Source: an uncultured Bacilli bacterium
GTDB taxonomy: Bacteria > Bacillota_I > Bacilli_A > RFN20 > CAG-826
Assembly (NCBI GenBank): GCA_905236715.1
Contig: CAJOMQ010000014.1
Location: 1 to 51,315 of the forward strand
Length of the DNA: 51,315 nucleotides
Direction of reading: 5' to 3'
Of the stretch, positions 1,757-30,590 are shown in pieces; the first letter of the stretch is position 1; each line of letters opens with the position of its first letter. Both the position numbers and the translations under genes were made by a program. Below the pieces are notes generated by a model. That model ran no database searches and had not been told where the DNA came from. It saw only the letters and a list, made by a program, of their open reading frames with translations.

Positions 1757-4498
1757 TTATTTTTTCTTATTTTTGATAGCGAAAACTAAAGCCACGATTT
1801 CATGTACCACAAGTGGTAAGATAGCTAAAGCAAAGACAATAAGCCATTGTGTCACGTTTAAAGCGGAACACTTAAAGAAGGTATTAACTCCCGGTACCGC
1901 GACCACAAAGACTTGTAAGGAAACACCAAGTCCAAAAGCTAACCAAAGTAGCCAGTTTCTGCTCTTGAAACAATGGATGAAAGATTTTTTAACACTAGTC
2001 ATACCAAGCATATGGAATAATTCCGCGATTGATAAAACACAGAACGCCATAGTTTGGGAAGTAGTTAATATATCGGGATATTCCGCTAAACGGAAAGCTA
2101 TTTCGTTAAGATCAAAAGTCACACTACCCATACCAAATATGGGGGTGTATAAGAAAGCAAATAAAACCGCCAAAGTAATAATTAATCCATAACCAAATGT
2201 TAATAAATAACCACCATGGGAGAATAAAGAATCATGGGGATTGCGGGGTTTTTCATCCATAATACCAGTTTCTTTTTCATCGGCGCCCAACGCCACAGCG
2301 GGTAATGAATCAGTAATTAGATTCACCCATAAAACGTGGATGGCTAATAATGGAGTGGCTAATCCATATTCACTGGTAAATAAAGATAAAATAGCGATGG
2401 CAAACATCGTTAAAACTTCGGCAATATTAGAACTTAATAAGAAGAGGACGGTCTTTTTAATATTGGCAAAAATGCCACGTCCTTCTTCCACGGCTTTTTC
2501 GATAGAAGCAAAATTATCATCGGTTAATACCATATCAGCAGCGCCTTTGGCGACATCAGTCCCCGTGATACCCATAGCAATACCAATATCGGCAGATTTT
2601 AAGCTTGGGGCGTCATTAACACCATCACCAGTCATCGCGGCAATATTTCCATTCGCGCGGATGGCTTTCACAATAGAAACTTTATTTTCGGGAGAAACAC
2701 GGGCAAAAACACGTACTGTTTTTACGGCTTCTTGTAATTCTTCAAAAGATAATTTATCGATTTCCTCACCAGATATCGCTTGGGAAATATCTTCCGCAAT
2801 ACCTAATGATTTAGCAATAGCTAAAGCGGTTGTTTTATGATCACCAGTAATCATAATGGTAGTAATACCCGCTTTTTTGAAGATATAAACCGCATTAGCG
2901 GCTTCAGGTCTCGCTGGGTCAATCATGCCTACTAAACCGACAAATATGAGATTTTCTTCACTCAATTCATCACTTTCTTTATAAGCGAGTCCTAATACTC
3001 TTAAAGCTTCCACCGCCATAGCGTCAGAGGCCGCCATAATATTTTCTTTATCTTTTTCATTTAATGGACATATTTTTCCATTAATGAGAATTTTATCTGC
3101 GCATTTTAATATGGAATCAATCGCACCTTTGGTAAATATCACATATTTATCTTGGCTTTGATGCTTGGTTGACATCATTTTACGAACTGAATCAAAAGGA
3201 TATTCATCAACACGTGGATATTCATTTTCTAAATCTTTTTTGTGTTTTCCTAATTTATTAGCAAATTCCACTAAAGCGATTTCGGTGGGATCGCCATATA
3301 ATCCTTCATCAACGGAAGCGTTAGAACATAAAGAAAGACCAGAAGCTAGGAATGTACAAGATCCATTATTTAAATTATCTTGGTCCACCATTTGCTCATT
3401 TAAATAAGCTTTTACCACGGTCATCTTATTTTGTGTTAATGTGCCTGTTTTATCAGAACAAACCACACTAACAGCACCTAAAGTTTCTACCGAAGGTAAT
3501 TTTCTTACGATCGTATTGGCTTTGACCATTTTTTGCACACCAAGGGCCAAAACAATGGTAACCACAGCAGGTAATCCTTCCGGAACAGCGGCCACTGCTA
3601 AAGAAATAGCAAACATGAAGTCTTCCACTATGACATCTAATGGAGCGCTATTCACATGTTGTTGATGGATAACAAATGAATCTAATAATTGAATACCTAA
3701 AATGAGAACGACGATAATGATAGTTAATAAACCTAAAAATTTCGATAATTTGGCCAATTGTTTTTGTAATGGGGTGGTTTCATCTTCATTAGAAGAAAGC
3801 ATCTTAGCAATCTTGCCGGTTTCAGTTTTCATACCGGTATATACCACTACTCCTTCACCACGACCATAAACAACGGGAGTGGAAGAATAAGCCATATTAA
3901 TACGATCACCAACACCCACTTCATCACTAAAGACAATATTAGCGTCTTTTTCTACTGGTAAAGATTCACCAGTTAAAGAAGATTCGTCGGTTTTTAAATT
4001 AATAGAAGAAATTAATCTTAAATCAGCAGGAACCGTTCTTCCTTCTTCAAGAATAACAACATCGCCTGGCACTAATTCTTCCGCTTTTAATTCAATTAAT
4101 TGACCATCTCTTTTCACAATACATGTTGGGGATGATAATTTTTTTAATGCCTCTAGAGATTTTTCAGATTTATTTTCTTGAACAGTAGAAATAACTGCAT
4201 TCAAGATGACCACACCCATAATAATAATGGGATCCGCAAAATCAAATTTATCACCATTGACTAAGGTGTTATATAAAGATACACCAATGCTTAATACGGC
4301 AGCGGCTAATAAGATAAAAATCATCGGGTCATTAAAATTAGATAAAAAGACGAGAATAAGAGGCTTCTTCTTTTTCTCTTCTAATTTATTAAGACCATAT
4401 TTGAGCATTCTTTCACCCGCTTCTTGGGTGGAAAGACCTTGCTCTGGATTCACATTTAATTCTTCGCAGGTAGTAGCGTAAGATTTTGTTTCATACAT
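1757..4498 (-). CDS. Type II (P2A) cation-transporting P-type ATPase, probable Mn2+/Ca2+ exporter
   Basis: A 913-residue P-type ATPase. Visible landmarks in order are the N-terminal cation ATPase domain, the actuator TGES loop (LTGESLP), the M4 ion-site motif PEGLP, the phosphorylation site DKTGTLTQNK, the KGA nucleotide-site motif, the hinge MTGDGVNDAP, and M5/M6 ligand segments SSNIAEV and NLITDSLPAVALG. The Asn/Glu and Asn/Thr/Asp pattern in M5/M6 matches Ca2+ or Mn2+ pumps such as SERCA, LMCA1 and YoaB. The leader looks like a yybP-ykoY manganese riboswitch, so Mn2+ export or homeostasis is the best inference. Strong Shine-Dalgarno AAAGGAG lies about 9 nt before the ATG. The nearest promoter lies upstream of tRNA-Leu, so the two are probably cotranscribed. 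Confidence 0.9.
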   Translation of the reverse strand: MYETKSYATTCEELNVNPEQGLSTQEAGERMLKYGLNKLEEKKKKPLILVFLSNFNDPMIFILLAAAVLSIGVSLYNTLVNGDKFDFADPIIIMGVVILNAVISTVQENKSEKSLEALKKLSSPTCIVKRDGQLIELKAEELVPGDVVILEEGRTVPADLRLISSINLKTDESSLTGESLPVEKDANIVFSDEVGVGDRINMAYSSTPVVYGRGEGVVVYTGMKTETGKIAKMLSSNEDETTPLQKQLAKLSKFLGLLTIIIVVLILGIQLLDSFVIHQQHVNSAPLDVIVEDFMFAISLAVAAVPEGLPAVVTIVLALGVQKMVKANTIVRKLPSVETLGAVSVVCSDKTGTLTQNKMTVVKAYLNEQMVDQDNLNNGSCTFLASGLSLCSNASVDEGLYGDPTEIALVEFANKLGKHKKDLENEYPRVDEYPFDSVRKMMSTKHQSQDKYVIFTKGAIDSILKCADKILINGKICPLNEKDKENIMAASDAMAVEALRVLGLAYKESDELSEENLIFVGLVGMIDPARPEAANAVYIFKKAGITTIMITGDHKTTALAIAKSLGIAEDISQAISGEEIDKLSFEELQEAVKTVRVFARVSPENKVSIVKAIRANGNIAAMTGDGVNDAPSLKSADIGIAMGITGTDVAKGAADMVLTDDNFASIEKAVEEGRGIFANIKKTVLFLLSSNIAEVLTMFAIAILSLFTSEYGLATPLLAIHVLWVNLITDSLPAVALGADEKETGIMDEKPRNPHDSLFSHGGYLLTFGYGLIITLAVLFAFLYTPIFGMGSVTFDLNEIAFRLAEYPDILTTSQTMAFCVLSIAELFHMLGMTSVKKSFIHCFKSRNWLLWLAFGLGVSLQVFVVAVPGVNTFFKCSALNVTQWLIVFALAILPLVVHEIVALVFAIKNKKK

Positions 4499-4614: not shown

Positions 4615-4701
4615 TGGTGCCCGAGGCCGGAATCGAACCGGCACGGTATCGCTACCGCTGGATTTTGAGTCCAGTGCGTCTACCAGTTTCACCACTCGGG
4701 C
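4615..4701 (-). tRNA. tRNA-Leu (anticodon CAA)
   Basis: Class II tRNA with acceptor GCCCGAG/CTCGGGC, a leucine-type D arm (GTGGTGAAACTGGTAGAC), anticodon loop CTCAAAA giving anticodon CAA (reads UUG), a long variable arm, T loop TTCGATT, and an encoded CCA at 4615-4617. It has its own promoter. Its 3' end lies about 7 nt before the manganese riboswitch of the ATPase, with no room for a promoter between them. Confidence 0.97.
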
Positions 4702-12523: not shown

Positions 12524-12560
12524 TAATAAAAACGAGATAATATTATGCATCATCTCGTTA
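12524..12560 (-). terminator. Terminator after tRNA-Arg
   Basis: Minus strand: AACGAGAT (12552-12559) pairs with ATCTCGTT (12531-12538) across a 13-nt loop, followed by TTTTTATT. It lies about 10 nt after the encoded CCA. Confidence 0.65.
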
Positions 12561-12568
12561 CCTATCAT

Positions 12569-12645
12569 TGGGGCGCCTGGTGTGACTCAAACACACGGCC
12601 TCAACCTTCGGGGGGTTGCGCTCTATTCAACTGAGCTACAGGCGC
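12569..12645 (-). tRNA. tRNA-Arg (anticodon CCG), aberrant at conserved positions
   Basis: The cloverleaf is complete: acceptor GCGCCTG/CAGGCGC, D stem GCTC/GAGC, anticodon stem CAACC/GGTTG, T stem GTGTG/CACAC, encoded CCA. The anticodon loop CCCCGAA gives anticodon CCG (CGG codons). Three near-invariant bases are changed: position 33 is C not U; the D loop AGTTGAATA has A at 19; the T loop TTTGAGT has U at 56, so the 19-56 tertiary pair becomes A-U. The discriminator is C. It starts 2 nt after the DJ-1 stop codon. Confidence 0.85.
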
Positions 12646-12647
12646 AT

Positions 12648-13202
12648 TTATAAACCAAAAATGCCTTTCTTGATTCTTTCCACTACTTCCTCACCTAAAT
12701 GATGTTTGACAATTGCTAAAGCAAAATCTAAAGTATAACCCATGGATTTACCAGTGACATTCATTGGAGAATTAACAACATTTTCATCTTTTTGATAAGA
12801 AGGCCCATTATCTAATTGTTCAAAGCCAGGAAAACAAATATAAGGATTATTTTTATCGATAGCTTTTAATCTATATAAAATAGGTGGCGCAGCGCATATC
12901 GCGTGTATGCATTTTTGATGATCAGAAAAATACTTAATGGTTTCTTTAACTAAAGATGATTCTTCGAGATTTTTAACACCAAGTTTTCCGCCTGGCAAAA
13001 CCAAAAAAGTAAAATCGTCTAATGTTGCATCTTTCAAAAGAATATTTGATTTGATCAATACACCATGGCTTGATTTAACAAATAAATCATCGTTAATTGA
13101 CGCTAAGACGACATCTATTTCTCCGGTGCGTGATAAAACATCAAAAGTCTGAATGGCTTCTGTTTCTTCAAATCCTTCCGCTAATAAGATGAGTGCTTTC
13201 AT
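12648..13202 (-). CDS. DJ-1/PfpI family protein
   Basis: A 184-residue single-domain protein of the DJ-1/YajL branch. It begins MKALILLAEGFEETEA, which contains the conserved Glu near residue 14-17. The nucleophile elbow is HAICAAPPIL, with the reactive Cys near residue 103. The family's glycine-rich loop is LPGGKLG. Members act as redox-sensitive stress proteins or deglycase/glyoxalase-like enzymes; which applies cannot be told from sequence. No Shine-Dalgarno is visible. The gene lies between tRNA-Leu(CAG) and tRNA-Arg(CCG), so its mRNA ends are probably produced by tRNA processing. Confidence 0.88.
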   Translation of the reverse strand: MKALILLAEGFEETEAIQTFDVLSRTGEIDVVLASINDDLFVKSSHGVLIKSNILLKDATLDDFTFLVLPGGKLGVKNLEESSLVKETIKYFSDHQKCIHAICAAPPILYRLKAIDKNNPYICFPGFEQLDNGPSYQKDENVVNSPMNVTGKSMGYTLDFALAIVKHHLGEEVVERIKKGIFGL

Positions 13203-13223: not shown

Positions 13224-13308
13224 TGGTGCAGCCAGCAGGAGTCGAACCTGTATGAGTTGCCTCACTAGAACCTGAATCTAGCGCGTCTACCAGTTCCGCC
13301 ATGGCTGC
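13224..13308 (-). tRNA. tRNA-Leu (anticodon CAG)
   Basis: Class II tRNA: acceptor GCAGCCA/TGGCTGC, leucine-type D arm with GG at 18-19, anticodon loop TTCAGGT (CAG, reads CUG), long variable arm, T loop TTCGACT, encoded CCA (13224-13226). Its 5' end lies 2 nt after the stop codon of the nucleotidase gene and its 3' end about 20 nt before the DJ-1 start. Confidence 0.97.
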
Positions 13309-29675: not shown

Positions 29676-30590
29676 TTATTTTTCCTCCACTGGCTTATGG
29701 GCTCGTGGATGAGCGGTACTGTACTCTTTTTGCATGGCTTCCGCGGTGACATGGGTATAAACTTGGGTAGCATTAATACTTTCATGGCCCATTAATTCTT
29801 GAATAACCCGCAAATCGGCCCCATTTTCTAATAAATGAGTGGCAAATGAATGTCGCAAAATATGCGGATGCAAATCCATAAATAGGCCGGTTTTATTTTC
29901 AATTTGATCCAAAATATATTCCAAGCCACGGGTTGTTAAACGTTCACCACGATTATTCAAAAAGAAAGCGCGACATAATGTTTGGCTACGAGAGGCTAAT
30001 TTGGGTCTCAGTTTGTTGTTATAATCAGTGAGACTTTTTTGACATTCAGCGGTAAAAGGAACCATTCTTTCTTTTCTTCCTTTGCCGAGAACGCGAACAT
30101 ATCTTTGATTGATGTTCACATCTTGAATGTCTAAGGACACTAATTCCGCCGCACGAATACCAGAATAATATAGTAATTCCAAAATCGCTTGATCTCGACT
30201 CGCTAATTCATCAGTTCTCTTAGCGTTTTCTTTGAAAATGTTTTCAATTTGTTCTTTATATAAGGCGTGGGGATATTTTTTATCCATCTTTGGTGAAGAT
30301 ACAAAAATAAAGGGGTTATCTTTGACAACTTTTTCAGTCACTAAAAAAGAATAAAAATGTCTTAACGCTGACATTGAACGAGCACATGAACGCTTAGAAA
30401 CACCCCTAGCTAATTCTTCGCTGAGATAATTACGGATGATGATTTGATCAACTTCATCCATCTTAACACCTTCTTTTAAGATAAATTTAAAAAATTTATC
30501 CAAATCAGCGGAATAACTTGCAATCGTTTTATCGCTATAATTTCGTTCAACTTTTAAATGGTTAAGAAAATCAACAGTCGCTCTATTCAT
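29676..30590 (-). CDS. xerC: Tyrosine recombinase XerC
   Basis: 304 residues. The N-terminal SAM-like core-binding domain is FLNHLKVERNYSDKTIASY. The catalytic domain shows YYSGIRAAELVSL (Arg), GKGRKERMVP (Lys), HILRHSFATHLL (His-x-x-Arg), MGHESI (His) and the nucleophile in TQVYTHV (Tyr). Its position after topA matches B. subtilis codV/xerC, so it likely resolves chromosome dimers at dif. The ATG at 30590 is preferred over the upstream frame opening at 30704. A CGG codon at 29808-29810 encodes the conserved Arg of ADLRVIQ. Confidence 0.95.
   Translation of the reverse strand: MNRATVDFLNHLKVERNYSDKTIASYSADLDKFFKFILKEGVKMDEVDQIIIRNYLSEELARGVSKRSCARSMSALRHFYSFLVTEKVVKDNPFIFVSSPKMDKKYPHALYKEQIENIFKENAKRTDELASRDQAILELLYYSGIRAAELVSLDIQDVNINQRYVRVLGKGRKERMVPFTAECQKSLTDYNNKLRPKLASRSQTLCRAFFLNNRGERLTTRGLEYILDQIENKTGLFMDLHPHILRHSFATHLLENGADLRVIQELMGHESINATQVYTHVTAEAMQKEYSTAHPRAHKPVEEK

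Follow-up and report, generated by a model that had tools for sequence, protein, structure and literature searches.

The window analysed here is a stretch of 51,315 nucleotides from an uncultured Bacilli bacterium (contig CAJOMQ010000014.1 of assembly GCA_905236715.1), with a GC content of 35.8%. On its minus strand, at positions 12569–12645, lies a gene for tRNA-Arg(CCG) that encodes its own CCA end and departs from the norm at four places. A19 stands for G19 in the D loop (12627), U56, its partner, stands for C56 in the T loop (12589), C33 stands for U33 in the anticodon loop (12612), and the discriminator is C73 (12572), where relatives have G, A or U. Few features of tRNAs are as conserved as position 33 and the 19–56 pair. 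The initial annotation had described this gene, odd bases included, and ARAGORN, the RF00005 model (57.2 bits) and a direct reading all agree with it. The host genome, of 1.29 Mb in 25 contigs, is metagenome-assembled and 94% complete, and the closest relatives of its HtpG in named genomes come from uncultured gut or rumen metagenome-assembled genomes (MAGs) labelled Erysipelotrichaceae, Bacillales or Bacilli.

Apart from these four bases, the molecule is what we expect of a bacterial tRNA-Arg(CCG). The acceptor stem reads GCGCCUG/CAGGCGC, with G1–C72 as its first pair, and the four stems of the cloverleaf are paired. The D loop is A14 G15 U16 U17 G18 A19 A20 U20a A21, where the arginine identity base A20 (12626) adjoins A19; the anticodon loop is C32 C33 C34 C35 G36 A37 A38, and the T loop U54 U55 U56 G57 A58 G59 U60. 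The canonical molecule differs from it in having G19–C56, U33 and a purine, A or G, at 73. A Watson–Crick pair is thus kept between positions 19 and 56, while U33 is lost. The gene would hardly pass for a pseudogene, as no stem is broken and the change at 19 and 56 is compensated, C33 being the uncompensated departure. Its RF00005 score ranks 29th among 41 tRNAs of the genome, and a fast scan of the window against Rfam failed to report it. Forced into a cloverleaf, it has a predicted energy of -27.3 kcal/mol, against -27.9 for the minimum free energy structure; without the constraint, the acceptor and anticodon stems still form and the D and T arms are mispaired. Many unmodified tRNAs show mispairing of this kind.

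Relatives are the natural place to look for the meaning of the 19–56 pair. We gathered 77 tRNA-Arg(CCG) genes from genomes of the same order, our own included (63 distinct sequences; the genomes compared are mostly MAGs). G19–C56 is present in 62 of them and A19–U56 in 14, with no mixed combination. The last one, in genome G012, has C56 and a D loop (AGUCGAUUA) that allows either A19 or G19, so it was counted as ambiguous; a second match in this genome (C6:27218-27272), at a contig end and overlapping the contig-start copy by 55 nucleotides, was taken as the same gene. Pattern searches were run as well, with pyrimidines only at position 56, with D arms resembling TAGCTCAG only, and on samples that overlap each other and the 77 genes. 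In the order (279 genomes), U56 sought with G or A at 19 came with A19 in 19 of 19 cases. In the class, A19–A20 sought with C or U at 56 came with U56 in 8 of 8 (395 genomes), and A19 followed by any base at 20 came with U56 in 7 of 7 (376 genomes). A phylum-level sample of 363 genomes, all from the same class or nearer, gave A19 in 8 of 8 when U56 was sought with G or A at 19. The A19–U56 matches belong to seven families (f1, f5, f11, f16, f23, f27 and f30) and, within f1, to genera g1, g5, g9, g12 and g26. Their anticodons are CCG, CCU and UCU, all for arginine, and CAU in two f30 genomes (G643:C1:375085-375139 and G660:C1:1231163-1231217), where the loop resembles that of elongator tRNA-Met, so that the swap is not confined to arginine tRNAs.

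Because these matches span seven families and none is half-made, the comparison identifies A19–U56 as a recurrent and compensatory swap, found mostly in arginine tRNAs, with independent origins judged, for this pair as for C33, by family and genus labels only. Chance was ruled out as its cause, since no set examined shows a change at one of the two positions alone, and the compensation proposed in the initial annotation stands. Sequencing error was ruled out too, since the same odd bases recur in many separately assembled relatives; the fear that relatives might be canonical and the assembly faulty at this place is thereby dispelled. It is plausible that such a pair is functional, because A19:U56, when placed in a G19:C56 mutant of human mitochondrial tRNA-Ser(UGA), restored aminoacylation (PMC10412605). 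This is of course an engineered molecule, with another tRNA and another synthetase. A search of the open-access literature, conducted mostly at the level of titles and the opening of abstracts, found neither a natural bacterial A19–U56 pair nor a bacterial initiator tRNA with C33.

Position 33 calls for a separate account. C33 is present in 11 of the 77 CCG tRNAs, our own and ten others of the family, distributed over genera g1 (ours and three more), g5, g8 (three) and g25 (three). This count includes the gene of G217, missed by the C33 pattern and added from the sequences of relatives, and excludes a match in G061 that fits the pattern but does not look by eye like a tRNA-Arg(CCG). Among the 14 CCG tRNAs with A19–U56, 12 have U33 and 2 have C33; among the 11 with C33, 8 have G19–C56 and one more is the ambiguous case. 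As A19–U56 goes mostly with U33, and C33 mostly with G19–C56, the two changes are largely independent. The A19–U56 arginine tRNAs of other Bacilli (CCG, CCU and UCU) share with ours the paired swap adjoining A20, and differ from it, outside g1 and g5, in having U33.

C33 is not confined to tRNA-Arg(CCG): it is also found in the initiator and in an Ile2-type tRNA of the same genome. Our sample of this genome for tRNAs and codons comprises about 438 kb (a set of stretches and the window), with 379 predicted open reading frames (ORFs), 125,476 codons and 42 distinct tRNAs, of which these three have C33. All three carry C32-C33-C34. C34 is present in 15 of the 42 tRNAs overall, which gives a probability of 0.04 for its presence in all three by chance, and it is present in every C33 tRNA that was parsed. 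The initiator (G000:C2:30285-30360, that is L204:10285-10360, minus strand) has the loop CCCAUAA and the C1 x A72 mismatch. Its T stem (GGUGUG facing CCACC) seems to contain an additional, bulged U, and this tRNA is among the weakest RF00005 matches of the genome. The other CAU tRNA (G000:C2:35878-35954, that is L204:15878-15954, plus strand) has the same loop, CCCAUAA, and we take it to be tRNA-Ile2 on account of its loop and acceptor and because the genome has another tRNA that serves as elongator tRNA-Met; ARAGORN calls both CAU tRNAs Met. No other reader of AUA was seen among the 42 tRNAs, and AUA makes up 10.9 codons per 1000.

A CAU pattern applied to 24 chosen genomes extends this observation. 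It retrieved ten initiators, all confirmed from full sequences, eight with C33 (G002, G003, G004, G008, G012, G013, G032 and G240; loci L292-L298 and L271) and two with U33 (G023 and G604); our own initiator escaped the pattern and was identified separately. Twelve Ile2-type tRNAs were retrieved with them, three having C33 (ours and those of G018 and G163) and nine U33. In the stretches sampled, C33 is present in one of the 30 tRNAs of G240, its initiator, and in none of the 29 of G023; it is likewise absent from the 32 tRNAs in the loci of the closest HtpG relatives.

That three different tRNAs should carry C33, always within C32-C33-C34, and that one of them should be the only AUA reader seen for a codon used 10.9 times per 1000, brings to mind a C-to-U deaminase acting on such loops, which would restore U33 and a normal U-turn in the mature molecules. 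We consider such editing improbable. A scan for deaminase motifs, covering the stretches of our genome (about one-third of it), found a single dCMP-deaminase-like ORF, and C33 is natural in eukaryotic initiator tRNA-Met (PMC9023262, PMC8080527). There it is followed by C34, just as in the initiators with C33 found in this family. The window tRNA differs from these initiators in being an elongator that needs to function in the A site, and the bacterial initiators differ from them in keeping C1 x A72. A natural elongator with C33 is known too, the tRNA-Cys(GCA) of Sulfolobales (PMC7668247), which is archaeal and has a G34 anticodon.

Is there something for tRNA-Arg(CCG) to read? As the initial annotation had it, CGG is in use: it accounts for 87 of the 125,476 codons (0.69 per 1000). 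The arginine tRNAs seen in the genome are ACG, UCU, CCU and CCG; there is no tRNA-Arg(UCG) among the 42 distinct tRNAs, and the search for a second, normal tRNA-Arg(CCG), raised earlier as a possible objection, found none in the 1.29 Mb of the genome. In passing, GCG is a common alanine codon in this sample (15.2 per 1000) though CGG, CTG, AGG and CAG are rare. When our proteins were aligned, with CGG residues masked, to stretches of four family members, 33 aligned pairs were obtained, at 24 sites in 18 genes. The residues facing CGG are 15 Arg, 4 Glu, 3 Leu, two each of Cys, Ala, Val and Asn, one each of Asp, Gln and Tyr, and no Trp; 13 of the 15 Arg are encoded by other arginine codons in the relative. 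In log-likelihood, Arg is ahead of Lys by 17.4, of Gln by 23.8 and of Trp by 66. It wins too in an unmasked run with same-family relatives, one best match being kept per genome. An early run that included Clostridia pointed to Glu and was dominated by a single unconserved site of HtpG. The CGG codon of XerC singled out earlier as encoding a conserved arginine (29808–29810, minus strand; residue 299, in GADLRV) aligns, in phmmer, with Arg in Escherichia coli XerD and in XerA, and with Ile in 9i5v. By alignment, then, CGG still means arginine in this genome. Because no other tRNA found there reads this codon, tRNA-Arg(CCG) is probably needed, in keeping with the earlier suggestion that it may be required.

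This result bears directly on the idea that CGG is being reassigned, tRNA-Arg(CCG) carrying another amino acid. The setting is the one described for Bacilli in which CGG or AGG has changed meaning (PMC8629427): gut organisms with a low GC content, a rare CGG, no UCG tRNA and a dedicated CCG tRNA. For CGG, that work infers the meaning Trp in one clade of Bacilli, within order RFN20, and the meaning Gln in Peptacetobacter. C73 moreover lies outside the A/G73 rule of arginine tRNAs. In contrast to those cases, CGG aligns with Arg in our genome, Trp and Gln being 66 and 24 log units worse, and A20, C35 and G36 are retained. The CGG-to-Trp code was rejected for this organism, with 0 Trp in 33 pairs and with A20 and C73 together violating the rule given for Trp in the same paper (G73 without A20). 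Reassignment strikes us as the least credible of the explanations considered.

The discriminator leads to another explanation, decay. A pyrimidine at 73 is found in 12 of the 77 CCG tRNAs, C73 in ours only, and it is present in 8 of the 11 C33 tRNAs against 4 of the 66 others, these 8 all belonging to the g1/g5/g8 group. One may imagine that a rare CGG exerts weak selection, that C33 and C73 are mildly damaging changes on the way to loss of the gene, and that A19–U56 is a chance compensation. The low frequency of CGG and the co-occurrence of Y73 and C33 in the g1/g5/g8 group fit this scenario. So does the observation that 138 of 224 family genomes have no match to tRNA-Arg(CCG) at E<=1e-5, where loss or strong divergence is possible, and so do other odd tRNAs in the genome, with the T loops of tRNA-Phe and tRNA-Asn. 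Still, all stems are intact, and the 19–56 pair is never half-broken in any searched set. Relaxed selection through codon rarity, tried as the cause of C33, fails for the Ile2-type tRNA, because AUA is used 10.9 times per 1000, and C33 is in the initiator as well, so that tRNAs the cell cannot do without carry it. We rate decay as unlikely, if the most serious of the rivals.

The two T loops just mentioned deserve a description of their own. The only tRNA-Phe(GAA) seen (L203:8811-8886, minus strand, on G000:C2) has the T loop CGCGCUC and A18, that of G023 being normal. The tRNA-Asn(GUU) (L213:1382-1456, plus strand, on G000:C12) has the T loop AUCGUAA, as if the 54–58 pair had been swapped to A54–U58.

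The surroundings of the gene are those of its canonical counterparts, with tRNA-Leu(CAG) and tRNA-Leu(CAA) as neighbours. Several relatives have the complete series Leu(CAG)–Arg(CCG)–Leu(CAA), on one strand. Among 45 loci longer than 1 kb that contain the CCG tRNA, ours included, Leu(CAA) is within reach in 18 and Leu(CAG) in 10. In the window, tRNA-Leu(CAG) lies upstream (13224–13308, minus strand) and tRNA-Leu(CAA) downstream (4615–4701, minus strand), about 8 kb away, both called by ARAGORN and placed by comparison with the loci of relatives. Next to the latter is a large ORF (1757–4498, minus strand), by eye a candidate P-type cation ATPase, which tblastn also found near the locus in G009, G001 and G003. 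Judged by gene order, the locus is ancestral and not a stray copy. Immediately upstream of tRNA-Arg(CCG) is a gene for a protein of the DJ-1/PfpI family (12648–13202, minus strand; PF01965, 99.5 bits); because its stop codon ends 2 nucleotides before the tRNA, the two are likely to be co-transcribed. Just downstream, a hairpin of 12 pairs with a T-rich tail (12531–12559, minus strand) resembles an intrinsic terminator by consensus match, three such hairpins being found in the region against 0.9 expected from shuffled sequences. In two other genomes, G038 (L050) and G054 (L040), the gene is in tandem with another, as tRNA-Arg(CCU)–Arg(CCG), an arrangement described for family CAG-288 (PMC8629427). 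Judging by this tandem and by the labels of the MAGs closest in HtpG, the host probably belongs to the GTDB order RFN20.

With a probability of about 0.75, we favour the reading that tRNA-Arg(CCG) is a working tRNA, the sole reader of CGG as arginine, in which the 19–56 swap is neutral, and that its family tolerates C33 when C34 follows. From the sequence we infer that it is expressed, charged and active in decoding, and that C33 is tolerated rather than edited. The host would be an uncultured gut Bacilli species with a reduced genome. Because A19–U56 is an isosteric Watson–Crick substitute for G19–C56, joining the D and T loops in the same way, the elbow should fold as usual; the swap has arisen repeatedly in arginine tRNAs of Bacilli. 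C33 would be a separate, tolerated change, the family having repeatedly turned U33 into C in C34 tRNAs, be they initiator, Ile2-type or Arg(CCG). The U-turn would then lose the bond from N3-H of U33 to phosphate 36, decoding remaining adequate and probably being helped, for CGG, by three G–C pairs between codon and anticodon. C73, finally, may be tolerated by arginyl-tRNA synthetase (ArgRS), since A20, C35 and G36 are kept.

Several points weigh against this reading. CGG is rare, so that selection on its tRNA may be weak. Several CGG sites are at unconserved positions, among them that of HtpG residue 265, where E, D or N prevails in other organisms. C73 departs from the A or G usual in arginine tRNAs, and the enrichment of pyrimidines at 73 among C33 tRNAs could betray weakened charging. 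In yeast tRNA-Gln, U33C has a phenotype that its authors tied to poor decoding or charging (PMC3664417).

The repeated paired swaps in a bacterial family are natural evidence that pairing between positions 19 and 56 matters more than the bases that make it. A wider proposal, which we find possible yet doubtful, is that U33 is no longer obligatory for the C34 tRNAs of this family, among them the initiator, the only AUA reader seen and the only CGG reader: a C33 turn may be acceptable to its ribosomes or modification enzymes, or an unknown deaminase may change C33 to U in loops with C32-C33-C34. Since C33 recurs in bacterial initiator, Ile2-type and arginine tRNAs, natural molecules can serve to test what U33 does in initiation and elongation, and these genomes are singled out for tRNA sequencing, editing and an adapted ribosome both being possible.
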